Positions 16,459-35,628 of a DNA stretch of 35,679 bases are shown one piece after another (position 1 is the first letter of the stretch; every line of letters starts with the position of its first letter). Source of the stretch: an uncultured Ectothiorhodospiraceae bacterium (GTDB taxonomy: Bacteria > Pseudomonadota > Gammaproteobacteria > UBA6429 > Thiohalophilaceae); assembly GCA_947259575.1 (NCBI GenBank), contig CAMYMU010000062.1, positions 1 to 35,679 on the forward strand, read 5' to 3'. The notes under the pieces were generated by a model that saw only the letters and a list, made by a program, of their open reading frames with translations, made no database searches and had not been told where the DNA came from. The position numbers and the translations under genes are program-made.

Positions 16459-17775
16459 GTGACCTCATCCCATATCCAGGATCCTTGCCTCCCTGAAGGG
16501 CCCGACCTGGCCTATGACATGAACACCACCGCTGAGTGTTTTGAGCAGCTGGCGGAATGGGTAAAAATCTACCCGGATATTTTCGCGCTCAAGCCTGACA
16601 AACGCAAAGATATGACCTTGTTTGTCAATCACCCGGATTACATTAAACATATCCTGGTTTGCGATAATGATCGTTATCAGAAGGGTGTTGGTTTTGAACG
16701 GGTCAAGATGTTATTGGGTAATGGCATTATCGTTAGTGATGGGCCTTTCTGGCGTAAACAGCGCCGCATGATCCAGCCTGCTTTCGGGAAAGATGTGATT
16801 GCGAAGCTTGTCGATCAGGTTAAACATGCCAACCTGCAGTTGTTTGAGAAGTGGCACGAGCTGGCTAAACAAGAGGCGATCATCAACATCACTGATGTGA
16901 CAAATGAACTGGCATTGGAGATAATTTTACTCGCGCTATTTAGTGATGATCTCGACTCCGTCTTCGCCCGAGCAGGTGGTAATCCATTCTCCATTTTGAC
17001 GGATAATAGTGCGCGTGATTTACAGCTGGCAGTCAAATTTCGTGGGCTAACCAAACTGGTCGGTGAGGTCATTGAGCAACGCCGCCAGGAATGTGCAGAA
17101 CGTACAGATTTCTTGTCGGTGTTTATGGATGCGCGTGATAAAGATACCGGTGAACCGATGAGTGACAAAGAGCTTATCGATGAAGTTATGACTTTAATCG
17201 TTGCCGGTTCAGAAACAAGTGCCACAACCTTGAATTGGATGTGGTATAGCCTGTCGCAACATCCAGAAGTCGAAGCACGTTTACACCAGGAGGTTGATGA
17301 GGCCAGTTATGATCACGTCCCAGGCTTTGAGAATATTATGGAACTTGCCTATACCCGGCAGGTAACAGAAGAAGTGCTAAGATTATATCCGCCAGTTTGG
17401 TTATTTACGCGTAAGGCCATAAAAGAGGATAAGCTGGGTGACTATGATGTTTTACCCGGGACAGATATTTTTATCGCACCTTATTTTCTTCATCGTCATG
17501 CAGACTATTGGCAAGCCCCGGAAAAATTTAACCCGGAACGATTTACTCCAGAGGCGATTAAACAGCGCCACAAGTTTGCCTTTATTCCTTTTTCAGCCGG
17601 GCCGCGCCGTTGTATTGGAGATTTTTTCGGCATTGTTGAAGCGCAAATTCATTTTGGTTTAATGGCACGCCATTTTAGAATGGAGCACATTGAAGATAAC
17701 CCTATTGAACTAGCGCCTGAAGTTAACTTAAGGACACGGCACCCCATTAATATGCGGATACTTCCGCGGACTTGA
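16459..17775 (+). CDS. Cytochrome P450
   Basis: A 438-residue soluble P450 mono-oxygenase. IVAGSETSATTLNW is the oxygen-binding I helix, EEVLRLYPPVW carries the ExxR motif, and FIPFSAGPRRCIGDF is the heme loop with the cysteine ligand C385. No membrane anchor is seen. The start is a GTG with AGGA 8 nt upstream. The stop lies 6 nt before a fatty acyl-AMP ligase with a built-in carrier domain, which suggests that the P450 oxidises a fatty acyl chain, perhaps while it is bound to that carrier. The sequence around the heme resembles bacterial CYP102/CYP4-like fatty acid hydroxylases more than CYP107-type enzymes, but the subfamily is not certain. No ferredoxin partner is encoded nearby. Confidence 0.92.
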   Translation: MTSSHIQDPCLPEGPDLAYDMNTTAECFEQLAEWVKIYPDIFALKPDKRKDMTLFVNHPDYIKHILVCDNDRYQKGVGFERVKMLLGNGIIVSDGPFWRKQRRMIQPAFGKDVIAKLVDQVKHANLQLFEKWHELAKQEAIINITDVTNELALEIILLALFSDDLDSVFARAGGNPFSILTDNSARDLQLAVKFRGLTKLVGEVIEQRRQECAERTDFLSVFMDARDKDTGEPMSDKELIDEVMTLIVAGSETSATTLNWMWYSLSQHPEVEARLHQEVDEASYDHVPGFENIMELAYTRQVTEEVLRLYPPVWLFTRKAIKEDKLGDYDVLPGTDIFIAPYFLHRHADYWQAPEKFNPERFTPEAIKQRHKFAFIPFSAGPRRCIGDFFGIVEAQIHFGLMARHFRMEHIEDNPIELAPEVNLRTRHPINMRILPRT

Positions 17776-17781
17776 GCCATC

Positions 17782-19743
17782 ATGATTAAACACACAACAC
17801 TTAATGCTGCACTGCTTGCTCAGCAAGAGAATAAATATGGCGTAACCTTCGTCGAAGGGAAACAGGACCATCGTTCACTCTCATATAAAGACCTCTATGC
17901 ACGGGCAATGATGTTGTTGTTTGATTTTCAGGAGGCGGGGATAAGCGTCGGCGATCAGTTAATTATTTTGCACAAAGATAATCAGACCTTTGTAGAAGCC
18001 TTCTGGGCATGCGTCATGGGAGGGATTGTGCCCGTACCGATTGCAGTCGGTATTAGTGATGAGCACAAAGGAAAACTATTTCGCATTTTCAACAAACTGG
18101 AACGCCCACACCTGTTTACTACAGATGAGCATTTTCAACGTCTGACCCAGTTTGCCGATACTAACAATTTACATGAGTCACTACAGGTTTTAAAAAATAA
18201 AACCCTTTTGTCTAACTTGATGGAAAGCCATGAACATCGGGGTAAAGCACACACACCCGCTGAAGATGAAACAGCATTTATTCAGTTTTCATCAGGTTCG
18301 ACCAGTGAACCAAAAGGCGTGGTGCTGACACACAAGAATATTATGACAAATCTCAACGCGATTGCGGTTGGGGCGAATTACACTAACAACGATATTAGTT
18401 TGAGCTGGATGCCATTAACTCATGATATGGGTTTGTTAGGTTTCCATTTGAATATGATCGCGGTCGGTATGTCACAATGTTTAATGCCAACCGATCTATT
18501 CAGTCGCAGGCCCTTATTGTGGATGGAAAAAGTAAGCGAACTCAAAGCGACAGTAACATGTTCCCCCAATTTCGGTTATAAACATTTCCTGAAGGCCTTT
18601 CAAAATAAAACGATCGAGTCACTCGACTTATCTCATGTACGTGTAATCTATAATGGTGCTGAGCCGATTTCGGTTGATTTATGTGAACAATTTCTTGAAG
18701 CACTGAAACCTTTTGGATTACCACGAGAGAGCATGTTTACGGTCTATGGTTTGGCAGAGGCTACGCTTGCCGTTGCATTTCCGACACAGGGTGAAGTCTA
18801 CCGTGCTATCTATCTGGATCGCCATGCCTTATTGATGGGCGATGAAGTGCATGTTGTGAAGCAGGATCATTCTGATGCAGTTGGTTTTGCCATAGAAGGT
18901 CCGGCTGTACTAGACATGCATATAAAGATCACTGATGAAAGTAATGCTAGCTTGCCTGCAAACTGTATTGGTCTTGTGCAGATGAGAGGACCCAGTGTTA
19001 CCTCATGTTATTACCTGGATGCAGAGGCGAACCGCAATGCACTCACTGGCGATGGCTGGCTTAATACGGGAGACCTTGGATTTCTAACCGAACATGATGA
19101 ACTCGTGATCACTGGGCGTGAGAAAGATATCATTTTCTCAAACGGTCTAAATTATTATCCACATGATATTGAAGCGGTGGCCTTACAGCTACAGGAGCTG
19201 GAGCTAGGTAAGGTGGTTGCTTATGGTGTCCGCAAACCGGGTCAAGATACCGATCAACTCATCGTGTTTATTTTGTTTCGTGCTGACCCTAAAGATTTCG
19301 TCGGCATTGTCCGCGACGTTACCCGTCATATTAACGAACAGACTGGGCTGGAAGTCGAGCAGGTCATACCTGTAAAGCGGATTCCCAAAACCACCAGCGG
19401 GAAATTACAACGCCGCCTGCTGGGCGACGCCTATTTGAATGGGGAATATGATGAGGTGCTTGCGCAAATTAGTGAAAGTTTGTCGGCGGCACATAGTGAG
19501 CAGCAAGGTGATTTGAGTGAAGTGGAGTTCAAGCTGAAATCAATATTTGAAGAAATAATCAAAGAAAAAACCATCGATATCCAGGACAACTTCTTTGAAA
19601 TGGGTATCAGCTCCTTGAGCCTGACCGAGGTACACCAGGAAATCGACAGCCAATACCCTGGTATCGTCGACATTACTGATATGTTTGAATACCAGTCAAT
19701 CAAAGAACTGGCGCTGTTTATCGAAGAGAAATTATCGATTTAA
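17782..19743 (+). CDS. Fatty acyl-AMP ligase fused to an acyl carrier domain
   Basis: A 653-residue two-domain protein. Residues about 1-560 are an AMP-forming ligase: FIQFSSGSTSEPKGVVLTHK (ATP loop), SLSWMPLTHDMGLLGFHL and VYGLAEATLAVAFPTQGEVY as in fatty acyl-AMP ligases, GREKDIIFSNGLNYYPHDIE, and the C-terminal KTTSGKLQRR with the catalytic Lys. Residues about 580-650 are a carrier domain with DNFFEMGISSLSLTE, where Ser611 is the likely phosphopantetheine site; the usual preceding Asp is Ser here. It would activate a fatty acid as adenylate and load it on its own carrier. It follows the P450 by 6 nt. No ketosynthase, NRPS or reductase is adjacent, so the released product is unknown. Confidence 0.9.
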   Translation: MIKHTTLNAALLAQQENKYGVTFVEGKQDHRSLSYKDLYARAMMLLFDFQEAGISVGDQLIILHKDNQTFVEAFWACVMGGIVPVPIAVGISDEHKGKLFRIFNKLERPHLFTTDEHFQRLTQFADTNNLHESLQVLKNKTLLSNLMESHEHRGKAHTPAEDETAFIQFSSGSTSEPKGVVLTHKNIMTNLNAIAVGANYTNNDISLSWMPLTHDMGLLGFHLNMIAVGMSQCLMPTDLFSRRPLLWMEKVSELKATVTCSPNFGYKHFLKAFQNKTIESLDLSHVRVIYNGAEPISVDLCEQFLEALKPFGLPRESMFTVYGLAEATLAVAFPTQGEVYRAIYLDRHALLMGDEVHVVKQDHSDAVGFAIEGPAVLDMHIKITDESNASLPANCIGLVQMRGPSVTSCYYLDAEANRNALTGDGWLNTGDLGFLTEHDELVITGREKDIIFSNGLNYYPHDIEAVALQLQELELGKVVAYGVRKPGQDTDQLIVFILFRADPKDFVGIVRDVTRHINEQTGLEVEQVIPVKRIPKTTSGKLQRRLLGDAYLNGEYDEVLAQISESLSAAHSEQQGDLSEVEFKLKSIFEEIIKEKTIDIQDNFFEMGISSLSLTEVHQEIDSQYPGIVDITDMFEYQSIKELALFIEEKLSI

Positions 19744-23610: not shown

Positions 23611-23686
23611 GTCCCCATCGTCTAGAGGCCTAGGACACCGCCCTTTCACGGCGGTAACAGGGGTTCGACTCCCCTTGGGGACGCCA
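23611..23686 (+). tRNA. tRNA-Glu (anticodon TTC)
   Basis: A 76-nt cloverleaf with encoded CCA. The acceptor stem GTCCCCA pairs with TGGGGAC, and CCGCC/GGCGG encloses the loop CTTTCAC with anticodon TTC. Its last 48 nt recur exactly at 35581-35628, marking it as an integration target. Confidence 0.97.
23639..23686 (+). repeat. Left copy of 48-bp direct repeat (attachment-site candidate)
   Basis: The 3' half of tRNA-Glu, from the anticodon stem to the CCA, is identical to 35581-35628. The identity stops at C23638 on the left and at the CCA end on the right. This is the pattern left by site-specific integration into a tRNA 3' end. Confidence 0.85.
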
Positions 23687-24169: not shown

Positions 24170-25861
24170 ATGGTAACAATCATAAATAAGCTAGAAGAGC
24201 ACAGTGCTGGGCACAACTCAGTCTGGCGCTTTCCGGCTGAGAATCAGGAAGTCGATCTAGTACAGCTTGGCCATCTGTCGCATCAATATGCGTTGGCTCT
24301 TCGAGAGCTAGGTGTGCAAAGGGGGCAACGCGTTGCCACGATTCTGGATAACGGTCTGGACCTGGTGGTATTGCTACTGGCGATCTGGCGCATAGGTGCC
24401 GTTGCTGTTCCATTACGTCCACGCGGAAACGTGCAGCTCAGTTACCGTAAGCACCTGCAAAACTATGATGACGTGTGCGATTTGTCACTGGCGATCCATG
24501 CGTCAGGCTTCGATCAGGAAACTCTGGATTTCTGTCAGCAGCGGAACAAACGTGCGGTTTGCGTCGATTACTTTCATGCTTACCGATCAACCGATAGTCA
24601 ACTCCCGAAAAATGTTGCTGTAGCAGCAGATGACCTTGCTCTGTTGCAATTCTCTTCCGGCAGTACAGGAAAACCGAAAGGTGTCATGGTGACCCATGGC
24701 ATGATGATGGCGCAACTGGACAATATCAGGGAAAACCATGCTATTTCCCGTGGAGGTGAGACGGTAGCTTCTTCAGCCTCATGGTTACCCATCAATCACG
24801 ACATGGGTTTGTTTATCGGCGTGTTATCACCCGTGCATACTGGTTGTGACAATTTACTGGCTCCGCCATCGTTTTATATGCGAAATCCAAAACGATGGTT
24901 TAAGTTGCTTTCTGACTATAACGTTGATTTCACGTTCAGTACCAATAGTGTTTTAGCCTCAACCTTAAACAACGTAAGCCGCTTGCAGGGTACAGATGAG
25001 GTTAATCTAGAACAGCTTCATATGTATGTAGCGGCTGAAAAAGTCAGCCCGGTCATTATTCGAAAATGTTATGAAGTACTTTGCCCGCTCGGTATGGATA
25101 AAAGCCAGGTCCATATTGGCTATGGAATGGCGGAAAATTCCCTGGGGTGTGCCTGTACCAAAAGTCATTATATAAATATCAACCAGTTTGTATTTGAAGA
25201 GAATGGTCAGGTCAGTGTGGTAAAGAGTCATCACCCCCATGCGATTGAACTGGTGGCCATCGGGCCGCCGGATAAAAATCATGTCATTACGATTCGTGAT
25301 CATTTTAACAATATCCTGCCAGAGTTGCGCTTGGGTGAAATTAATATCGAAAGCCCCTGTGTCAGTCCTGGCTACTACAATAACCCCGCTGCAACACAAC
25401 GTTCATTAGAAGGTGGCCGGTTACGCACGGGCGATCTGGGATTCTTCTACCAGGGTGAATTGTATTTTTATTCGCGCCGTGATGACATGTTGGTGATCGG
25501 TGGCCGAAATATTATTCCCGAAGATGTCGAGTTTACGGTAGAAGAAAAACTCAGTTTTGTAAGAGTGGGGGGTAGCTTCCTGTTAGGGATTGAAAATAGT
25601 GCTAAAGGCGTGACCGAGTTGGTTTTGTTGGTAGAGAACCATGCCTTGCGCTCAACAGAAGAAATGCTGGCAAACAGGGTGAAAATTCAAAAGCGGGTCT
25701 ACCAGGAGCATGACTTATTGTTAAATAAAATAATAATTTGCGCGAAGGGGACAATGGAAAAAACCTCCAGTGGCAAGAAAAGAAGAAAAATAATTCGCGA
25801 TCGTTTCGTTAACAATCAAATTGATAACCTGGAGATGGAATATGTCTCTACAGCAATATAA
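24170..25861 (+). CDS. Fatty acyl-AMP ligase (FAAL-like)
   Basis: An AMP-forming ligase of 563 residues, first gene of the island operon. LLQFSSGSTGKPKGVMVTHG is the ATP loop. SWLPINHDMGLFIGVLSPVH and VHIGYGMAENSLGCACT are typical of fatty acyl-AMP ligases, RLRTGDLGFFYQGELYFYSR is the hinge region, and MEKTSSGKKRRK holds the catalytic Lys. The expected role is to activate a fatty acid as adenylate and transfer it to a carrier protein, here probably the separate carrier encoded at 30783. The frame is open from 24104, but the ATG at 24170 follows a GGGGGA and gives an N-terminus of normal family length; the short spacing leaves some doubt. Its 3' end overlaps the next gene by 20 nt. Confidence 0.88.
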   Translation: MVTIINKLEEHSAGHNSVWRFPAENQEVDLVQLGHLSHQYALALRELGVQRGQRVATILDNGLDLVVLLLAIWRIGAVAVPLRPRGNVQLSYRKHLQNYDDVCDLSLAIHASGFDQETLDFCQQRNKRAVCVDYFHAYRSTDSQLPKNVAVAADDLALLQFSSGSTGKPKGVMVTHGMMMAQLDNIRENHAISRGGETVASSASWLPINHDMGLFIGVLSPVHTGCDNLLAPPSFYMRNPKRWFKLLSDYNVDFTFSTNSVLASTLNNVSRLQGTDEVNLEQLHMYVAAEKVSPVIIRKCYEVLCPLGMDKSQVHIGYGMAENSLGCACTKSHYININQFVFEENGQVSVVKSHHPHAIELVAIGPPDKNHVITIRDHFNNILPELRLGEINIESPCVSPGYYNNPAATQRSLEGGRLRTGDLGFFYQGELYFYSRRDDMLVIGGRNIIPEDVEFTVEEKLSFVRVGGSFLLGIENSAKGVTELVLLVENHALRSTEEMLANRVKIQKRVYQEHDLLLNKIIICAKGTMEKTSSGKKRRKIIRDRFVNNQIDNLEMEYVSTAI

Positions 25862-28796
25862 GGACTTTTGTAAACCGAAGTTAGCCGAGCTTCTGACGGC
25901 GTTGAAGCTGGACTCCCATTTTACTAAGGCGCAAGGCGATTACCTGTTCACGGATGATGGCCGGGAAATTCTGGATTTTATTGGTGGCTTTGGTTCGACT
26001 GTGCTTGGGCATAATCATCCTGAGATAGTTCGGACTGTCGTTGAATCGTTACAAGAGAGCAAGCCCATTCATGCGCAAGGTTCAATTCGCGATGGTGCAG
26101 CACATCTTGCACAACGTTTAAATGAACTGACACCACACGGTGGAGGTTATTACGTTAACTTCAGTAATAGCGGCGCAGAAAGTGTTGAGGCCGCCATCAA
26201 GCATGCCTACAAAGTACAGTTTGATAAGGTCCGGCGTGAATATGAAAGATTAACTCGGGTCCTGAATGATTTTTACTACAAGGTCGAAAGAGAGGGTCTT
26301 GAGCTTGAGCTGCCTGGCAAAAATAAAGATCTGATCGATTTTAGAGACGACCTGGATGAATATAATTTGTCCCAGTTTGAGGCATTTCAGAACAACCCGG
26401 TCATCATTGCATTCAAAGGATCGTTCCATGGAAAAACAGCTTCAGCTTTGAAGGTGACGTTTAACAAATCTTATCGCGAAGCATTTGAAGGTCTGTCGGC
26501 TTTACGTCCCGTTTATATCGACATCAACGATTCGCATCGTATACCGGAAATCTTAAATGAGCAGGTGAGTACGTTTTACTATCCTGTGATTAAAGGGAAT
26601 CAGGTGGAATTGCGTCCGGTGTCACTGCCCCGAGTGATTGCAATGGTATTTGAAGTTGTTTTAGGCGAGGGAGGTATTAAACCGGTACCGGATAAAACCC
26701 TGGCGCACATGGCAGAGTTTCATGCTCAGTGGCAAGTCCCTTATATTATCGATGAGGTCCAAACCGGTTGTGGGCGTATCGGTGAAATATACGCGCATGC
26801 ACAAACGCCTTTACGGAATATTCAGCCAGACTATATTGTGCTCAGCAAGGCCCTGGGTGGCGGGGTTGCGAAAATTGGTGCCACGTTGATTCGTAAAGAT
26901 ATTTATGATCACGATTTCGGGATTCTACATACTTCCACTTTTGCAGAAGATGAGTTGTCAGCGCGGGTAGGGTTGTGCGCGCTTGATATTTTGACGCGCA
27001 ATGATCGATCGCTACTGCAGGGTGTGATTAATCAAGGTGAATATTTATTGCAGAAACTAAAAGGCCTGCAGGAAAAGTTTCCGCAAATCATCAAGGACGT
27101 GCGTGGCAAGGGGTTAATGCTGGGTGTGGAATTTACCCCGCTCAAAGAGCGTTCGCCATTCTTTCGTGCCAGTGGGCGGCAAGGTGTTTTGTCGTTACTC
27201 ATCGCCAGTTACTTGCTGGAATACCATAACATTCGTTTGCTTGCACCTTTAAGCACGATGCTCAAAGGGAATCCAGGAAAAACTCGTCAGTCCATCCTCA
27301 GGGTACAACCATCGGCACTAGTGGGCACGGAGGAAATAGATCGTTTTATCACGGGCTTTGATGAAGTCTTACAAATTATTGAAAATAACAATGAGTATTG
27401 TCTGATCGGTCATCTAACAGGTTCACCCGTTCCCAAGTCGTTGCGTGAGAACGCACAATTTTTTAAAGTCAGCTGGCCGGTTACGGAACAAGAAAAACAT
27501 ATTGATGCGCGTACCGGTTTTGTGGTGCATCCAACCACGCTGGACAATCTGGTTGAATATTATTTTCCCTCATTTCTTGCCTATGACTGGGATACTAAAG
27601 GTGTCACGGACTGGTGGAATCGAATTAGTCGTTTCCTTGAACCTGTTCATGTCAAAAGTACCTATGTATCAGCCAATGACTTCGTGTTGGAAAATAATAT
27701 GGTCTTCGTGCCCTATTTGCCGGAAATGTTAAACGACCTGTCGCTGCCTTATTTGCGAAGGGAAGTACAGGATAAGGTACAGGATGCGGTTACGGTCGCG
27801 AAAGAACTGGGTGATGATAATATTCCGGTATCCATTGTCGGGCTTGGTGCCTATACCTCTATTGTTACTCAGAATGCACAGTTGATTAATGACTTTGAAG
27901 TGCCGGTTACCACTGGCAACACGTTTACCATCGGGCTGACAGTCTTGGGTATCATTGAAGCGGCACGGCGAAAATCGGTGGATCTGACTCAGGCGACGGT
28001 GGCTGTGGTGGGCGCGGCCGGTAATATCGGAATGGTGTTAGCACAATTGCTCGCGCAAAATGTCGGTAAACTGCAGCTCATTGGACGCCCAGGTGATCAG
28101 TCCGTACAACGATTGAAACATGTTCGCCAAAGTTGTTGGCAAGAACTGTTAAAGCACATTCATAATGACAAACTAAGTGGATTATCGGCCAGCGATACGC
28201 AACTGACGGGTATCGGTCTGGCTGTTTTCGAACTGCTCGAACAAGCAAAAGAAGATAGCCATCCCCTGCATCCCGTTGCCGCCGCACTCAATCAGGAAGA
28301 ATTGCCAACGCAACTTGGCCGCTTAATGGATGATGCACTTTGCCAGTTATTTGCGGATGACATTCCCTGGGTGGAGTTAAACGCAGGACTGGGAGATTTA
28401 ACCGGCTGTGATGTCGTCATCGTTTCCACAAATTCTCATGATGCAGAACTGATAAAACCAGCAAACCTTAAGCCCGGTGCCATTGTTTGTTGCACTTCGG
28501 TGCCCTCTAACCTGAGTCATGACTTTGATAATAATAAAAAAGATTGCCTGGCGTTTGATGGTGGGCTGGCAATGTTGCCGGATGATTCACGAGTAGACTT
28601 TGTTGGCATGCCGGGCGGGGCACTTGCATATGGTTGTCTGGCGGAAACATTTTTACTGGGTTTTGACGGGCAAAACCATTCCTACAGCAAGGGCGCGGTC
28701 ACCCTCGATCAGGTTTACCAAATGATGGAAATGGCGCAAACCCATGGTTTTGAACTGGGTAGTTTGAAACTGGGCGAGCAGATACTGCATGAATAG
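25842..28796 (+). CDS. Class III aminotransferase fused to acyl-ACP reductase (AAR-like)
   Basis: A 984-residue fusion. Residues about 15-510 are a fold-type I, class III PLP aminotransferase: FSNSGAESVEAAIKHAYK, FKGSFHGKTASALKVT, YIIDEVQTGCGRIGE, and VLSKALGGGVAK with the PLP lysine K336. Residues about 518-984 resemble cyanobacterial long-chain acyl-ACP reductase: CLIGHLTG, LPEML, GLGAYTSIVTQNAQL, TTGNTFTIG, ATVAVVGAAGNIGMVLAQ (NADPH-binding, from G724) and YGCLAETFLLGFDG, with C932 at the place of the thioester-forming cysteine. About 80 extra residues sit inside the reductase Rossmann region. Inferred role: reduce acyl-carrier thioester to fatty aldehyde and transaminate it to a long-chain amine. 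The start is the ATG after GGAGATGG; a TTG at 25821 is less likely. Confidence 0.88.
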   Translation: MSLQQYKDFCKPKLAELLTALKLDSHFTKAQGDYLFTDDGREILDFIGGFGSTVLGHNHPEIVRTVVESLQESKPIHAQGSIRDGAAHLAQRLNELTPHGGGYYVNFSNSGAESVEAAIKHAYKVQFDKVRREYERLTRVLNDFYYKVEREGLELELPGKNKDLIDFRDDLDEYNLSQFEAFQNNPVIIAFKGSFHGKTASALKVTFNKSYREAFEGLSALRPVYIDINDSHRIPEILNEQVSTFYYPVIKGNQVELRPVSLPRVIAMVFEVVLGEGGIKPVPDKTLAHMAEFHAQWQVPYIIDEVQTGCGRIGEIYAHAQTPLRNIQPDYIVLSKALGGGVAKIGATLIRKDIYDHDFGILHTSTFAEDELSARVGLCALDILTRNDRSLLQGVINQGEYLLQKLKGLQEKFPQIIKDVRGKGLMLGVEFTPLKERSPFFRASGRQGVLSLLIASYLLEYHNIRLLAPLSTMLKGNPGKTRQSILRVQPSALVGTEEIDRFITGFDEVLQIIENNNEYCLIGHLTGSPVPKSLRENAQFFKVSWPVTEQEKHIDARTGFVVHPTTLDNLVEYYFPSFLAYDWDTKGVTDWWNRISRFLEPVHVKSTYVSANDFVLENNMVFVPYLPEMLNDLSLPYLRREVQDKVQDAVTVAKELGDDNIPVSIVGLGAYTSIVTQNAQLINDFEVPVTTGNTFTIGLTVLGIIEAARRKSVDLTQATVAVVGAAGNIGMVLAQLLAQNVGKLQLIGRPGDQSVQRLKHVRQSCWQELLKHIHNDKLSGLSASDTQLTGIGLAVFELLEQAKEDSHPLHPVAAALNQEELPTQLGRLMDDALCQLFADDIPWVELNAGLGDLTGCDVVIVSTNSHDAELIKPANLKPGAIVCCTSVPSNLSHDFDNNKKDCLAFDGGLAMLPDDSRVDFVGMPGGALAYGCLAETFLLGFDGQNHSYSKGAVTLDQVYQMMEMAQTHGFELGSLKLGEQILHE

Positions 28797-28870
28797 CAAA
28801 TCCTGAATTTACGGCTGTAGCCGGACAGATATTCACGATTAAAAAACTAACGGCAAGGAAGGACACGGGC

Positions 28871-30715
28871 ATGTTTAATTTTACGACTGAAAAGCAAAAA
28901 CAGGTTTTCAAGGCATTTAACTCTATCAACAGTGTTACTGATATTGTCGAAAGCCATATCACCGCTTACGGTGACCGGTCTGCGATTCGTTATGATACCG
29001 GGGTAACCTACCGTTCTATCAGCTTTGCCGAGTATCAAAAATATTTACTGGCCATGATTCAGTTTTTTTCACGCGAAGGTGCTGAAGCAAAAGTTGTGGC
29101 CACGTTCTGTAAAAACAGGATTGAATGGGATATGACGGCATTGGGGGCCTTTTATACCGCCAATATCATATTTCCACTGGATACCAAGCTGAATGATGAT
29201 GAGCTTAATCATGTTTTATCAATCAACCCGCCGGATTACGTGTTGGTTTCCAGGGCACAATTACCTCGGCTCAGGGAGTTGCTTGCTAAGCATCAGCTTG
29301 CGTCCATTGTGTTGGTGGCAGATATTATCGAGGTGTTTGAAGATCAGGATGTCGATCCCATTGCATTGAATGCAAATGAAATCAGCCTGCGCCAGGTGAT
29401 GCAAGACTATGATCCGGATCTGAACATATTGCCCAGCCCGCTGTTGAATGATCCAGAAACCATTCTGGGCCACTATCCCACTTCGGGCACGACCAGTTTG
29501 CCAAAAATTGTGCAGATCACTCATGGAAATATTGTTGCAGAAGTCAATGAGGCAGTGGACGTTATTAATCTGCGCGCCAACGAAGAACTATTGAATATTG
29601 GTCCCTATACGCATATTGCCACACTGGTCGAGTTCTTGGTTACCAAGACCCGCGGTTTTTCGGTCACTTACTTCACGCGCGAACCGGATGACGATGATGT
29701 GCTGGAAGATGAAATCAAAAAACTAAAAAAGCTTGGTGTGCGCATCAAAGTATTGATGGCGGTGCCCAAATTTTGGATTTATTTGCTAAAAGAACTTCTG
29801 GAGGAAATGAAAAACAAGCACACCTTGCGCAACCTATATGAATATCTTGTCAGTATCGAGAAGAACGGCAAGTTATATGATATCGGCAGTCTGGACAAAG
29901 CAAAGCTTACTGCTATGCGCATATTGTTGCGTAATAAACTTGGTGGTTATTTCAGTTACGGAATTTCATCCTCCATGAAACTAGATGGGGCACTGGTCGA
30001 GATTTTTGGCAAGCTGGGCATCACGGTGATTGATATTTACGGTGCGACGGAATGTTGCGGAATCATTTCACGCAACCGTCTAAATGATCTCAAGCCAGGG
30101 TCCTGTGGCAGGATTATCGGTATGCTGGACTACCAGTTTGCAGATCAACGTCGTATTCCGGGAATTGAAAAGGAAGTAGGGATACTCGAAGTAAAAGGTC
30201 CGACTATCATGCATTCTTATAAAGGAATGGAACGGAATGCGGTACTTGATAACGATGGCTATTATTCAACCGGGGACCTGTGCTGGGAAGACGATGATGG
30301 TTTCTTGCATATCGTCGGACGTGAGAAAGAATTAATGCGCTGGAAGGATGGCACTTATATTGATCCACAACACTTGTCTAATCTGATGGTGCGTAGCATT
30401 TTTGTTAAAGATGCTCTGGTAACCCGCTTAAATCCTGAAGATGATTATTTAAGTGTTTATGTTTATCCAGATTATAAACGCATACACAAAGATCCTCAGT
30501 GGAACAAAGAAATTGAAACAGGGGTGAGCGAAAATGCTGCGCTTCGACATAGGTTTGAGAGTGCTATCGATTATGCTCAATCTATAGCCAATATCACGCC
30601 AGAGTTAAGTAAGAAAGTCATTTATATATTACCCAGGTCGTTACAACGTACACCTACTCACAAGATAAAGTTTATTTACGAATTTGAGCGGTTGCACCTG
30701 GCTGAGCCTATCTGA
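28871..30715 (+). CDS. Second AMP-forming acyl ligase (long-chain acyl-CoA synthetase-like)
   Basis: A 614-residue ANL-superfamily enzyme, more like long-chain acyl-CoA synthetases than the first ligase. GHYPTSGTTSLPKIVQITHG is the ATP loop, DIYGATECCGIISRNRL the second motif, DGYYSTGDLCWEDDDG the AMP-binding Asp, GREKELMRWKDGTYIDPQHL the hinge and THKIKFIYEFERLH the C-terminal Lys. AAGGAAGGA precedes the ATG. It lies 74 nt after the aminotransferase-reductase and 67 nt before a carrier-protein gene. It may load that carrier, make an acyl-CoA, or, like some ANL enzymes, acylate an amine directly. The substrate is unknown. Confidence 0.85.
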   Translation: MFNFTTEKQKQVFKAFNSINSVTDIVESHITAYGDRSAIRYDTGVTYRSISFAEYQKYLLAMIQFFSREGAEAKVVATFCKNRIEWDMTALGAFYTANIIFPLDTKLNDDELNHVLSINPPDYVLVSRAQLPRLRELLAKHQLASIVLVADIIEVFEDQDVDPIALNANEISLRQVMQDYDPDLNILPSPLLNDPETILGHYPTSGTTSLPKIVQITHGNIVAEVNEAVDVINLRANEELLNIGPYTHIATLVEFLVTKTRGFSVTYFTREPDDDDVLEDEIKKLKKLGVRIKVLMAVPKFWIYLLKELLEEMKNKHTLRNLYEYLVSIEKNGKLYDIGSLDKAKLTAMRILLRNKLGGYFSYGISSSMKLDGALVEIFGKLGITVIDIYGATECCGIISRNRLNDLKPGSCGRIIGMLDYQFADQRRIPGIEKEVGILEVKGPTIMHSYKGMERNAVLDNDGYYSTGDLCWEDDDGFLHIVGREKELMRWKDGTYIDPQHLSNLMVRSIFVKDALVTRLNPEDDYLSVYVYPDYKRIHKDPQWNKEIETGVSENAALRHRFESAIDYAQSIANITPELSKKVIYILPRSLQRTPTHKIKFIYEFERLHLAEPI

Positions 30716-30782
30716 ACAACCAGATTAGCTAACAGCGCAGCTATTTTCGAACAGTACGCTGCAGGGTTATAGGGAGATAAAC

Positions 30783-31046
30783 ATGTCATCTAAGCAAGGT
30801 ATGCTGAAAGAGTTAATCAGCTTGTGCCACGAAAATGATGTCAGTAGCGTTAGCGAACTTGAACAATATGCTGATGCCGATATTTTTGAGGCCGGCATCA
30901 TTGATTCTTCTGGCATGGTGTATATACAGGCTATTATTGATCAACATTATTCTGTTGAAATACCAGCAGAAATGTTTGTTACCGAGTTGCGCAGTCTGGA
31001 TGCCATAGCAAATTATTTACAGGAAACAATAAATGAAAGGCAATAA
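30783..31046 (+). CDS. Acyl carrier protein, DltC-like
   Basis: An 87-residue acidic helical protein. DIFEAGIIDSSGMVYIQAII matches the phosphopantetheine motif of small carrier proteins, with Ser42 as attachment site; the II-D-S pattern is closer to D-alanyl carrier proteins (DltC) than to AcpP. AGGGAG lies 6 nt before the ATG. It is the only carrier in the island and therefore the probable acyl holder for the ligase and the reductase domain. Its stop overlaps the next gene by 14 nt. A phosphopantetheinyl transferase is not encoded here. Confidence 0.85.
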   Translation: MSSKQGMLKELISLCHENDVSSVSELEQYADADIFEAGIIDSSGMVYIQAIIDQHYSVEIPAEMFVTELRSLDAIANYLQETINERQ

Positions 31047-31836
31047 TTTATTTATGAAATATTTTCTAGCATGCTTACTTGTGAGCTTGCTATTTGTTTC
31101 GACACAGAGTTTTGCTAATGATGCGGCACGCATCGGGCTAGAAATTGCCAGGGAGGCTGATCGGCGCGATCAGGGCTTTGCTGATCTTACGGCGAATATC
31201 ACCATGATCATAAAACAGGATGGCAGTCAACAACAACGAGAGTTGAAGTTTTCTGCGCTGGAACTCAACGATGATGGCGAAAAGCGCCTGTTTGTTTTTC
31301 GGCATCCAGCAGACATCAAGGGTACTGCCGTGCTGAATTATTCCCATATCAAGGGTGATGACGATCAATGGATATTTTTGCCGGCATTTAAACGGGTTAA
31401 GCGTATATCATCTGCCAATAAAACCACGCCCTTTGTGGGTAGCGAATTCGCCTATGAAGATCTGGTTTCTATCGAAGTACCGAAATATCATTACCTGTAT
31501 CTGGGTGACGAAGAGATACAAGGCCAGTCCTGTTTCAAGGTGCAGTTCACCCCCAGTTATGAAAACTCAGGTTATAGCAGGCAGATTGTCTATCTTGATA
31601 AACAGTACTACCGGATTCTAAAAGTCGATTTTTTTGACCATCAAAATGCGCTTTTTAAAACATTAACTGCGAATGGTTACAAACAATATTTGGGAAAATA
31701 CTGGCGGCCGGATAGTTTGCATATGGTGAATCACAGGGATAATCGACAAACGATTATGCAATGGCAAAATATAAAGATGAAAAACGGTTTAAGTCAGCGA
31801 GACTTTACTGTTATGGCATTAAAAAGATCACGCTAG
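31033..31836 (+). CDS. LolA-like periplasmic (outer membrane lipoprotein-sorting type) protein
   Basis: A 267-residue exported protein. The N-terminus (FLACLLVSLLFVSTQSFA, then ND) is a signal peptide with a probable cut after SFA. The mature part matches the LolA-like family often named outer membrane lipoprotein-sorting protein: FRHPADIKGTAVLNYSHI, DDQWIFLPAFKRVKRISSAN, FVGSEFAYEDLVS and YSRQIVYLDKQYYRILKVDF. The fold should be an open beta barrel with a lipid-binding cavity. AGGAAA 8 nt before 31033 supports this start; ATG 31054 is the alternative. It lies next to an RND exporter and would shuttle a lipid through the periplasm. Confidence 0.86.
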   Translation: MKGNNLFMKYFLACLLVSLLFVSTQSFANDAARIGLEIAREADRRDQGFADLTANITMIIKQDGSQQQRELKFSALELNDDGEKRLFVFRHPADIKGTAVLNYSHIKGDDDQWIFLPAFKRVKRISSANKTTPFVGSEFAYEDLVSIEVPKYHYLYLGDEEIQGQSCFKVQFTPSYENSGYSRQIVYLDKQYYRILKVDFFDHQNALFKTLTANGYKQYLGKYWRPDSLHMVNHRDNRQTIMQWQNIKMKNGLSQRDFTVMALKRSR

Positions 31837-31844
31837 GTACGAAT

Positions 31845-34172
31845 GTGATCAACATCGCCAGCCTCTATAAACACCGCTACTGGTTGCTCGCTGCCTGGAT
31901 CATGATAGTCGGAGGGTTTCTAGCCGTCATTGGACACAGATTGCTATCGCCTGTACCTGTTATTGATAATTCTGTTGGGGTTTGGTTTTTACAGGACGAT
32001 CCATTACGAACTTTTTATGAGCAATACAACAGAGACTTTGGCGAAAAGGAATGGAGCCTGTTGCTGCTGGAGACCGATGATATCTACAGCCCGGTTTTCC
32101 TGAGGGATCTACAAACACTGACCGAACAACTAAAAAAAATTCCTCACATCAAGAAAGTCACTTCGCTGACCAATGTGCGTGATAATAAGCTTAGCCCCGA
32201 TGGTGTGCTGGATTATTTGCCGATATACAGGGTTAAATACGGTGAACTGGCCAGCCAGTCACAACTCACGACCTTTAAACAACGATTAATGGCGAATGAA
32301 TTATTTGATAAAAATCTTTTCCGCCGTGATAGCCGACAGTATACCGTGGTACTTATTCAAAATGACAACTTGATCTATGAACAACAGCCATACCGTATAG
32401 AACTGGTTGATAGAATTAAGCAACAGGTTGTTTTGTTTGACTCCATCAAGCGCTATGCATTGGCAGGGACAACCGTTGTCAACGCAGAACTCAACAGGGC
32501 GGCAAGAGATGACGCTATTTTATTTTATATATTGATTACGGTTTTTTTGGCGATCTTTGCCCTGGTTTCATTAAGAAGTATCCGGGATATTGTTGTGCTG
32601 TTTTCTGTAGTGCTCGGAAGTATGTTACCCGCGATGGGGCTGCTGGCATTATTGGATATTGCTTACAATATGGTAACGATTATGATGCCAACGATCCTGA
32701 TTTCATTGTCGGTAGCCGGTGTGGTGCATGTAATTAGCGAATTCCATATGTTACGTGTTAAACAACGCCCATTACAGGCGGCACAAACCACCATACAGCA
32801 ACTATGGAAGCCGGCTTTGTGGACTGCCCTGACAACGATAGTCGCTTTCTCATCTCTGACACTCAGTACGGTCAATCCAGTCTTTCAGTTAGGCCTGTTT
32901 GCAGCCATCGGTATTTTTCTTGCTTGGTTGAATACCGTGTTTGTTGCCCCGGTACTGCTGGTCATGTTGTGGCAGAACGCAGAGCAAAAAATCAGTTCAG
33001 CGAAGCGAGGGCTCAGTCTTCGTGTCATTGATATGGCTCGTCGTGGGCGAGGCATTTCACTGTTGTTGTTTGTACTGCTTTTATTACCACTTTACGGGTT
33101 AGGCAACCTGGAAACGGATACGAACTATACCAAATTCTTTGATAGTAAAATGGACGTTAGTCAATCTTATGATGCTATAGCTAGGGCCGGTTTTGCACAG
33201 AACCCATTGATTATCTCTGTGGAATATCCTGAAAATTCTGAGTTTGGTTCAGAGCAAACTTTTTCCGGTATTGTGCAATTCGAACAAGCGATAAATTCTC
33301 TTGCTGGAGTCATCAAGATCATGTCGACAACGGAGCTGGTTCGACAGATTGACCGCGCTTTTAATGCAGAGCATACATCAGAGCAAAAGTTTCTGGGCTA
33401 TAACAGGCAACAAATAAATCAGCTGTTACTACTGGGTGAACTCAGTGGTAATGATGATATTAAGGATTTTCTTAGTCAGAATAAACGCAAGACTCAAATT
33501 GTTGCCCTGACACCGTACATGAGTTCAAAGGAACTCGCACAGTTCAATAAAAAAGTACAGGCACTGCGTGCGCAGTTTTTTCCACCATCCGTTAAAGTGC
33601 GAATGACAGGTACCACGGTATTATGGGCAAACATGGATGAAAATGTCAGTCAGACACAACTGACATCTATCCTGGGAGTTGGATTATTCCTGATTATATT
33701 TCTTATCACCGTGTTTCGTTCGATAAAACTGGGTGTGATAACGGTGATCGCCAATTTTTTACCATTGGCGATTACACTCGGTACCATGGGCTGGTTCGAT
33801 ATAAAGATCAATCTTGCCACTGCTTTGATAGGGGGTGTGTCATTAGGGGTGGTAGTCGATGATACCCTGCATTTTATTTATCGTGTACAGCTGAATTTAA
33901 AAAATAAAATGGATTGGGATGAGGCGATTGATAACGCCATGCTGACGGTTGGGCAAAGCATAATTAAAACGACCGTCATTATTACGGGTGGGTTTATAAC
34001 ATTGGCCAGTTCCAGTTTCCTTCCCAGTTCCCACTTCGGTATTTTTATCAGCATTGCCATCGTGACCGCATTGTTTTTCGATTTATTTGTGCTTCCAGCC
34101 GTACTGAAAATGCTTAATCCAGGAAAAACCCCCGATCTTATATCCTCAGCAGAGCGTGTAGATAAAAATTAA
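31845..34172 (+). CDS. RND-superfamily (MMPL-type) exporter
   Basis: A 776-residue inner-membrane transporter. One helix near the N-terminus (about residues 9-31) is followed by a large periplasmic domain, a block of five helices (about 225-385), another periplasmic domain, and a second helix block near the C-terminus containing GGVSLGVVVDDTLHFIY, with the paired Asp typical of proton-driven MMPL/RND proteins. Such proteins, including MmpL and HpnN, export lipids. I prefer the GTG at 31845: it follows AGGT by 6 nt and the preceding stop by 8 nt. The ATG at 31761 would force a 76-nt overlap and a polar N-terminus. It is translationally close to the LolA-like gene. Confidence 0.88.
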   Translation: MINIASLYKHRYWLLAAWIMIVGGFLAVIGHRLLSPVPVIDNSVGVWFLQDDPLRTFYEQYNRDFGEKEWSLLLLETDDIYSPVFLRDLQTLTEQLKKIPHIKKVTSLTNVRDNKLSPDGVLDYLPIYRVKYGELASQSQLTTFKQRLMANELFDKNLFRRDSRQYTVVLIQNDNLIYEQQPYRIELVDRIKQQVVLFDSIKRYALAGTTVVNAELNRAARDDAILFYILITVFLAIFALVSLRSIRDIVVLFSVVLGSMLPAMGLLALLDIAYNMVTIMMPTILISLSVAGVVHVISEFHMLRVKQRPLQAAQTTIQQLWKPALWTALTTIVAFSSLTLSTVNPVFQLGLFAAIGIFLAWLNTVFVAPVLLVMLWQNAEQKISSAKRGLSLRVIDMARRGRGISLLLFVLLLLPLYGLGNLETDTNYTKFFDSKMDVSQSYDAIARAGFAQNPLIISVEYPENSEFGSEQTFSGIVQFEQAINSLAGVIKIMSTTELVRQIDRAFNAEHTSEQKFLGYNRQQINQLLLLGELSGNDDIKDFLSQNKRKTQIVALTPYMSSKELAQFNKKVQALRAQFFPPSVKVRMTGTTVLWANMDENVSQTQLTSILGVGLFLIIFLITVFRSIKLGVITVIANFLPLAITLGTMGWFDIKINLATALIGGVSLGVVVDDTLHFIYRVQLNLKNKMDWDEAIDNAMLTVGQSIIKTTVIITGGFITLASSSFLPSSHFGIFISIAIVTALFFDLFVLPAVLKMLNPGKTPDLISSAERVDKN

Positions 34173-34212
34173 ACGCATTCATATTGACTCTCAAGCTTAT
34201 AAAAAGACAGAT

Positions 34213-35436
34213 ATGCTGGATAATAATATAGCGCTACAGATAAACAGACTTTTGCAATTACTGCTCATTATTGGCACTAGCCTTGTTTCGCTGAGTACAC
34301 CTGCCGCTGAGTGGCGTGGTTTGTTTGCACTTGAGTTTCGTCAGTATCTGCAAGACAAGTTAGATAGTCGTCAATATGACAATTATCTATCGGCTGTGAT
34401 TAATCCAGAGTTTTACCATGCCTGGGATAATAACCGTCATTCACTGACCATATCACCTTTTTATCGATGGGATGAGTATGACGAACAACGTTCGCATGCC
34501 GATATGCGAGAGCTTTACTGGCTATACATTGCCGACAGTTATGAATTCTCCGTTGGCCTGCGCAAGGTGTTTTGGGGGACAACCGAGTCACAACATCTTG
34601 TTGATGTGATTAATCAAACTGACCTGGTCGAAAACCCGGATGGTGAGGATAAGCTGGGGCAGCCAATGCTTGCCAGTTTAGTGTTAACAGACTGGGGGAA
34701 CGTGGAATTGTATGTATTGCCGTATTTTCGTGAGCGGACTTTTCCTGGTAAGCATGGCAGGCTGCGAACCATACCACGGGTTGATACCGAGGAGGCGGCC
34801 TTGTATGAAGATTCAAAACGTAACAAACATATTGACTTGGCCTTGCGTTGGTCGAATACCTTGCAAAGCTGGGATATAGGTCTTTCCTATTTTAATGGAA
34901 CCAATCGTGAGCCCTTACTGGTACCTACTATAAACAGTGAAGGTGAACCCGTATTGCTTCCATTTTATGAACTGATGCAGCAGAGTGGACTGGATATACA
35001 GGGGGCAGAGGGTGCCTTGTTATGGAAAATGGAAGCCATTTACCGGGATACACGAACAACGGATTATTTCGCTTCTACAGCGGGCCTTGAATATACGTTC
35101 GTCAACCCGATAGATTCTGGTATTGATATCAGCGTCCTGGCCGAGTATCTGTATGATGATCGTGGTCCCGATGCGACAAGTCCGTTTGATGATGACGTGA
35201 TGCTGGGCATCAGAATGACCACGACTGACGTGGATCCAACCGAACTGCTGTTTGCGGTCATTGCAGATCGTTCAAGTGAAGCTAGAATCTATCGCCTTGA
35301 GCTGAAACGCCGTATAACAAACCATCTAAAACTGAACCTGGAGGGCATGATATTTTCCAACTTGCAGGAGACAGATCCATTTTTTAGTTTTCAGCAAGAT
35401 GACTATCTGAAGGCGGAACTGGTTTTTTTCTTCTGA
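34213..35436 (+). CDS. Outer-membrane beta-barrel protein (DUF1302-like)
   Basis: A 407-residue exported protein. A hydrophobic stretch at residues 12-32 (LLQLLLIIGTSLVSLSTPAA) looks like a signal peptide. The rest has alternating polar and aromatic residues typical of barrel strands, and it ends in ELVFFF with a C-terminal Phe, the outer-membrane insertion signal. VGLRKVFWGTTESQHLVDVI recalls DUF1302-type proteins, which are often encoded beside LolA-like and MMPL genes; this assignment is from memory of the family. It lies 40 nt after the exporter and is the last gene of the island operon. No strong ribosome binding site is seen. Confidence 0.75.
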   Translation: MLDNNIALQINRLLQLLLIIGTSLVSLSTPAAEWRGLFALEFRQYLQDKLDSRQYDNYLSAVINPEFYHAWDNNRHSLTISPFYRWDEYDEQRSHADMRELYWLYIADSYEFSVGLRKVFWGTTESQHLVDVINQTDLVENPDGEDKLGQPMLASLVLTDWGNVELYVLPYFRERTFPGKHGRLRTIPRVDTEEAALYEDSKRNKHIDLALRWSNTLQSWDIGLSYFNGTNREPLLVPTINSEGEPVLLPFYELMQQSGLDIQGAEGALLWKMEAIYRDTRTTDYFASTAGLEYTFVNPIDSGIDISVLAEYLYDDRGPDATSPFDDDVMLGIRMTTTDVDPTELLFAVIADRSSEARIYRLELKRRITNHLKLNLEGMIFSNLQETDPFFSFQQDDYLKAELVFFF

Positions 35437-35580: not shown

Positions 35581-35628
35581 CGCCCTTTCACGGCGGTAAC
35601 AGGGGTTCGACTCCCCTTGGGGACGCCA
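35581..35628 (+). repeat. Right copy of 48-bp direct repeat (tRNA-Glu 3' fragment)
   Basis: An exact copy of 23639-23686, beginning inside the anticodon stem and ending with CCA. The sequence to its left (TAAGTTGTCA) does not continue the tRNA, so it is a fragment and not a gene. The 144 bp before it (35437-35580) hold nothing that I can assign. Confidence 0.9.

Follow-up and report, generated by a model that had tools for sequence, protein, structure and literature searches.

What would a set of adjoining genes for acyl activation, amine formation and envelope transport make together, and where would the product go? This question is raised by positions 24170-35436 of contig CAMYMU010000062.1, from an uncultured Ectothiorhodospiraceae bacterium (assembly GCA_947259575.1). 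The window, i.e. the whole stretch of DNA analysed, is this one contig of 35,679 bp, called C62 below. The locus comprises seven open reading frames (ORFs), g1 to g7, all on the plus strand: g1 and g2 overlap, as do g4 and g5, and gaps of 74, 67 and 40 nt separate g2 from g3, g3 from g4 and g6 from g7. We consider it reasonably probable, judging from family matches and gene order, that they form an island-borne operon for the synthesis and export of a long-chain primary amine; we infer the substrate, its chain length, the direction of the pathway, the product and the export of this product.

Predicted path from fatty acid to exported amine

The protein encoded by g1 (24170-25861, plus strand) resembles fatty acyl-AMP ligases (FAALs). 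It has the AMP-binding domain and the AMP-dom_DIP2-like C-domain of Pfam, each over its cut-off, and in the PDB ranking chains labelled as fatty-acid AMP ligases (FadD23, 3PBK, FadD32) stand above coenzyme A (CoA) ligases; the top chains carry the labels polyketide synthase (7R7E-G) and saframycin synthetase (3KXW), which we take to be FAALs. The A5-A7 spacing is 101 residues in g1 versus 76 in g3, i.e. 25 more, and in a sequence alignment g1 follows 7R7E across the FAAL insertion region with small gaps only. The FAAL features used are those of PMC11837247 and PMC8460268. The start of g1 at 24170 is supported by GGGGG just upstream and by the matches in three other loci (L050, L051 and L055), which start at the same residue. 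The putative partner of g1 is g4 (30783-31046, plus strand), a DltC-like acyl carrier protein (ACP) with Ser42, an IDSS motif and a match to PF00550 (PP-binding, E 3.7e-6); its top NCBIfam match is DltC, below the cut-off. D-alanylation (Dlt), which this likeness raises, was rejected, as there is no DltB- or DltD-type match in g1-g7. In the proposed path, g1 would adenylate a free fatty acid and load it on the phosphopantetheine of g4.

The amine itself would be made by g2 (25842-28796, plus strand; 984 amino acids), a TamH-type fusion of a class-III transaminase and an acyl-ACP-reductase-like half. Its N-terminal half matches PF00202 (Aminotran_3) with E 4.3e-64, while a Pfam scan of the whole protein finds nothing in its C-terminal half, which matches the long-chain acyl-ACP reductase model TIGR04058 with E 1.3e-18, below the curated cut-off. 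In the PDB, the protein matches 4PPM and 5DDS, and its C-terminal half matches 6JZQ/6JZU, an acyl-ACP reductase (AAR). As befits the TamH type, both domains stand in one chain, and the lysine, the glycine-rich motif and the cysteine are present: counted from the methionine at 25842, the pyridoxal-phosphate lysine is K336, the nucleotide motif GAAGNIG lies at 724, and the reductase cysteine C932 aligns with the active-site cysteine of AAR. The catalytic lysine and cysteine are invariant across 13 aligned fusions, an alignment that leaves out locus L039. The C-terminal half would take the acyl group onto Cys932 and, with NAD(P)H as reductant, convert it to a fatty aldehyde, which the N-terminal half would transaminate to a fatty amine, the amino donor being glutamate in PtTamH. 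By analogy, the chemistry may be that of PtTamA/PtTamH. A sequence-only reading of this DNA had proposed such a route from acid through acyl-ACP and aldehyde to amine, and the family matches, the two invariant residues and the PtTamA/PtTamH precedent (PMC9594044) all agree with it.

Export would fall to the genes downstream. The LolA-like periplasmic protein g5 (31033-31836, plus strand) matches PF17131 (LolA_like) with E 1.1e-57 and has an N-terminus that is hydrophobic by eye. The transporter g6 (31845-34172, plus strand), of the MMPL/HAE3 type in the RND superfamily, matches PF03176 (MMPL) with E 9.9e-25 and TIGR00921 with E 1.9e-48, below the cut-off; its ORF extends from an ATG at 31761, and the GTG at 31845 is the more probable start. 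The last gene, g7 (34213-35436, plus strand), has no Pfam match. It shows, by eye, an N-terminal hydrophobic stretch and a C-terminal VFFF, and its homologues (40-44% identical, remote ones 18-26%) adjoin LolA genes and mostly MMPL genes too. This makes g7 a probable outer-membrane barrel and partner of MMPL and LolA, a label that rests on sequence context, the single-sequence model having a mean predicted local distance difference test (pLDDT) score of 33. We propose that g6 and the periplasmic g5 would move the amine, or a simple derivative of it, out of the inner membrane, and that a barrel (g7 here, encoded elsewhere in other carriers) would pass it through the outer membrane. The remaining gene, g3 (28871-30715, plus strand), encodes a second adenylate-forming ligase of 614 amino acids, with a PF00501 (AMP-binding) match and with luciferases and acyl-CoA ligases as top PDB matches. 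It may be a dedicated activator of a second acid, either as a second acyl supply or as an amide-capping enzyme.

Conservation, spread and setting of the operon

Genes g1 to g6 keep one order in four loci: the window and, by tblastn against the loci, L050 (JAKIUF010000023.1), L051 (DROS01000027.1, HyVt-540) and L055 (genome G241). Identities to the window genes in these three loci are 49-51% for g1, 61-63% for g2, 42-44% for g4, 42-45% for g5 and 46-49% for g6; no other operon gene is as well conserved as g3, at 71-72% versus 42-63% for these five. The conserved unit is these six genes. The sequence-only reading had described a set of seven: all seven do share one strand in the window, but g7 lies outside the conserved core, and in the genomes of the other three complete operons (G232, G241 and G796) its homologues are found elsewhere. 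Partial copies of the operon stop at contig edges (L052, L053 and genome G795).

The close form of g2 is seldom met. At E<=1e-30, matches occur in seven of 369 class genomes, the window's own included: besides the latter, G232 and G241 (62%), two genomes with distant fusions (G069, G124) and two with a transaminase only (G085, G327). Among 398 genomes drawn from the phylum there are 11: nine have a transaminase only, one (G444) has a distant fusion, and the last is the window's own. Five of 24 genomes in the order of G232, all of one genus, have the close form, and so does one of six in the order of G241. Among 58 genomes of relatives (own included), it is present in the window's genome only, the next best being a 30% fusion in G010; the g2 query finds matches in 57 of the 58 through ordinary class-III aminotransferases. 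The operon is a rare, patchy unit in three gammaproteobacterial families. Because of this patchy spread and of the tRNA site described below, we infer that it may have moved horizontally.

Is the link between amine-making fusions and export wider than this operon? We collected 14 non-duplicate fusion loci (the window, L037-L041, L050, L051, L055-L059 and L098), after excluding the transaminase-only matches (the nine of the phylum draw and the two of the class set). Also left out were L052, L053 and L099, where contig ends cut the operon (the fusion of L053 is moreover split in two frames), L054 and L100, which duplicate L051 and L050, and the further full or long plasmid matches H3 and H7-H10. 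With profiles built from the families of g5, g6 and g7, a raw count gives MMPL near eight of the 14 loci, LolA near six and a g7-type barrel near three; without the four operon loci, the figures become 4/10, 2/10 and 2/10. The g7 profile finds the barrels of Photobacterium (8e-11) and of Leisingera (4.6e-10), neither of which was used in building it. In Photobacterium DA100 (L037), the fusion is accompanied by the export trio of MMPL, LolA and barrel and by ketosynthase and carrier genes. A Leisingera plasmid (L041, 9431-13618) encodes a triple fusion of 1,395 amino acids, with transaminase, reductase-like and benzoate-CoA-ligase-like parts, surrounded by PabB, LolA, MMPL and barrel genes; this suggests a pathway to an aromatic amine. 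Genome G124 (L057, 10033-19071) has a non-ribosomal peptide synthetase (NRPS) of about 3,010 amino acids with a terminal transaminase-reductase and an MMPL gene nearby, and G232 possesses a second, distant fusion adjoining an MMPL gene (L058). The NRPS of L057 has two AMP-binding domains, two carrier domains, a condensation domain and a PilZ domain, and an acyl-CoA dehydrogenase gene lies nearby. The link between biosynthesis and export claimed by the sequence-only reading is upheld by the order of g1-g6 in the window and three loci, and by MMPL at 4/10 fusion loci outside the operon clade. That export and biosynthetic genes might never co-occur, which would have spoken against this link, was checked: they do co-occur.

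The export genes also have a life of their own. In the window, LolA_like, MMPL and the g7-type barrel are adjacent (g5-g7). The g7 profile gives 20 further match rows in eight genomes; at the eight of these whose loci were examined, LolA stands beside the barrel every time and MMPL too at six. At five plasmid loci examined, from nine records of the plasmid collection with a g7 match, all five have MMPL, LolA and barrel, and they include a Sulfitobacter polyketide synthase (PKS) locus and an Acinetobacter locus (L097). Since the trio occurs in such varied contexts, g5-g7 would be part of a general export module. The MMPLs of these trios are about 20-27% identical to g6, versus 46-49% for those of the operons, and for this reason the operon transporter looks specialised. 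At L119 (9300-11286), on contig C11, LolA is again paired with a g7-type barrel, which shares 64% identity with g7; C11 also bears a copy of the tRNA-Glu 3' end, and the neighbours of the pair are ABC-export and metal-related by eye. On a 24-kb Pseudoalteromonas plasmid (L093, 1465-11926), LolA, MMPL and a g7-type barrel adjoin gamma-mobile-trio recombinase genes, a hint that this trio may be mobile in its own right.

Several points weigh against an operon dedicated to the synthesis and export of an amine. The MMPL counts above are raw and have no background rate near random genes beside them, the g5 and g6 profiles include the four operon proteins, whose matches therefore arise by construction, and six of the 14 fusion loci (L038, L039, L040, L056, L059 and L098) have no MMPL. 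The g7 profile finds nothing in the stretches around the other three complete operons. The presence of the exporter alone does not point to an amine, since the MMPL-LolA-barrel trio is also found by itself or next to PKS or NRPS genes. On the side of the enzymes, g2 falls below the curated cut-offs of the PigE and acyl-ACP reductase models, the top NCBIfam match of g1 is labelled a CoA ligase (the second and third are labelled AMP ligase, all three being below cut-off), and g3 is without an assigned step.

The seven genes are bracketed by an intact tRNA-Glu gene (23611-23686, plus strand, anticodon ttc, found by ARAGORN) on the left and, on the right, by an attR-like exact 48-bp copy of its 3' end (nucleotides 29-76 of the tRNA; 35581-35628, plus strand). 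In 100 shuffles no such match arose (0.00 expected), and these two ends justify the word island. No integrase ORF lies between the tRNA gene and the repeat; the genome has six PF00589 matches, all on contigs other than C62, C41 and C11. The contig ends 51 bp past the repeat. Because the last 99 bp of C62 are identical to the first 99 bp of C41, we think that C41 follows C62 in the genome, which the overlap suggests and does not prove. When GC content and its third-codon-position value (GC3) are compared with those of gltX and glnS, nothing stands out among the operon genes but the short g4. A promoter scan was uninformative, with 28 sites versus 26.6 expected.

Exact copies of the tRNA-Glu 3' end (47-49 nt) stand in series in this genome and in one genome of the same genus, at L072 (1-48, 1537-1584), L073 (9691-9738) and L074 (622-670, 2125-2171, 8207-8254). 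Between them lie the lipid operon, small pairs of genes and one large ORF that matches STAND NTPases weakly; by eye, several copies are followed by a hairpin and a T run. The arrangement resembles the outcome of successive insertions, at a single tRNA gene, of cassettes that lack an integrase. One 1.5-kb stretch between two copies (L072, 260-1466) encodes PDC-M21A/B, a defence pair listed as a candidate by PADLOC (E 7.9e-47 and 3.6e-66). Outside the island, at 16459-19743 of the window, a cytochrome P450 gene is followed by one for a fusion of an AMP-binding enzyme and a carrier domain, and by eye a similar-looking pair precedes gltX-glnS on a contig of the same genus (L077).

Which product?

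The most probable alternative concerns g3, the gene on which our reading is least certain. The final product might be an N-alkyl amide, g3 activating a second acid and coupling it directly to the amine from g1, g4 and g2, with the amide being exported; we regard this as possible, and rather unlikely. Were g1 the sole source of the acyl chain, the presence of a second, dedicated activating enzyme would be difficult to account for, and g3 retains the adenylation motifs, with the shorter A5-A7 spacing given above. Besides being the most conserved gene, it is found at E<=1e-40 in three of 369 class genomes, all three of them operon carriers (12 listed plasmid-borne relatives, about 20-25% identical, are little informative). 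This high conservation and this restriction to the operon suggest a defined step for g3, perhaps amide formation. However, the N-acylation put forward by the sequence-only reading finds no support here, since none of g1-g7 has a Pfam match to an acyltransferase or a condensation domain; in Leisingera, the benzoate-CoA-ligase-like part that follows the transaminase-reductase in the fusion suggests feeding of the reductase rather than capping of an amine; and the model of g3, made from a three-row alignment, is unusable (mean pLDDT 37).

It is less probable still, indeed improbable, that the amine is an intermediate, as in tambjamine, and that the other genes of its pathway lie elsewhere in the genome. 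Transaminase-reductase units do occur within larger pathways, in tambjamine and koreenceine (PMC6667630, PMC6498172) and at the NRPS locus of G124, yet no other biosynthetic gene adjoins all four complete operons (ORF lists inspected by eye) and the island holds nothing beyond the operon. The reverse direction, in which the transaminase would remove the amine of an alkylamine and the MMPL pump expel it as detoxification, is very improbable, since a dedicated acyl-activating enzyme and a carrier are loading machinery and the published fusions PtTamH, KecF and PpKTFusion are all placed in biosynthesis, even if a related HAE3 system gives monoterpene tolerance (PMC6394551) and a TetR-like gene adjoins three stand-alone trios (L095, L120, L122; by eye).

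We come back to synthesis and export of an amine. The sequence-only reading had suggested an unusual membrane lipid or a secreted lipoamine, and the product might be either. Long-chain amines are membrane-active, and to our knowledge few bacterial routes to them have been described. We put forward, tentatively and with somewhat less than even confidence, that the operon, complete in its six genes, turns ordinary fatty acids into a long-chain alkylamine or N-alkyl amide, an exported bacterial lipid of a kind not described before. Under the same proposal, transaminase-reductase amine makers fed by different acid sources (FAAL, type II fatty acid synthase, aryl ligase, NRPS) would be joined in a modular way to MMPL-based envelope export, in many cases together with LolA and a barrel. 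If this is true, it offers a testable cargo for MMPL/LolA/barrel systems that lack a known function, a ready ligase-carrier-fusion cascade from fatty acids to fatty amines, and a lipid to seek at metagenome sites where carriers abound. As the exporter recurs beside differently fed amine-making fusions, export specificity would also become accessible to comparative study.

Comparison with known systems

An operon with a FAAL, a transaminase-reductase, LolA and MMPL was not found in the literature searched, a weak negative as few subscription papers were covered. The fusion, the ligase-carrier loading and the exporter type are each known; it is their stand-alone combination that may be new.

The closest likeness is to PtTamA/PtTamH of tambjamine YP1 in Pseudoalteromonas tunicata, where an adenylation enzyme and a carrier load the acid and a transaminase/reductase fusion makes the amine (PMC9594044). 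PtTamH has the same domain order as g2, uses L-Glu and prefers a C12 aldehyde, and PtTamA and PtTamH together turn fatty acids into amines in one pot in vitro (same source). Unlike in the window, where ligase and carrier are separate genes, TamA is a ligase-ACP fusion; the window operon carries in addition the second ligase g3, and the tam gene table, in the part of PMC6667630 accessible, has permeases and an ABC transporter instead of MMPL/LolA. There is no bipyrrole (MBC) or TamQ-type match in the Pfam results of g1-g7, to which this search was confined.

The same domain order is found in KecF and PpKTFusion of koreenceine-type clusters in Pseudomonas (PMC6498172, PMC10829540). KecF is assigned to koreenceine clusters (PMC6498172); for PpKTFusion, transaminase activity was measured, and more distant orthologues lie in other cluster types (PMC10829540). 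Those clusters, whose products are tetrahydropyridine alkaloids, build their chain by type II ketosynthases, whereas in the proposed path the window would load a preformed acid. Pfam gives no ketosynthase match in g1-g7; one is present in L037 of Photobacterium DA100, which resembles koreenceine-type clusters with MMPL, LolA and barrel added. PigE of prodigiosin synthesis likewise has both activities in one protein, but in reversed domain order (PMC10829540 and the matched segments); g2 fails the PigE equivalog NF053554, with 336.8 bits versus a cut-off of 850 and the order reversed.

As to export, the acinetin-505 operon of Acinetobacter baumannii (A1S_0112-0119) also joins acyl activation and carrier genes to an RND/MMPL transporter. 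The gene sizes of L097 fit the acinetin operon of PMC5376624, and L097 has a LolA-like domain and a g7-type barrel as well; unlike in the window, the product there is an NRPS lipopeptide and L097 is without a g2 match. Finally, AmeABCD of Castellaniella defragrans differs from the window in that it is a four-component system for monoterpene tolerance, with no such biosynthetic genes described in the accessible part of its source (PMC6394551), but it is like the window in that its HAE3 pump is encoded together with a periplasmic protein of the LolA superfamily (DUF1329) and an outer-membrane protein of the DUF1302 type (PMC6394551).

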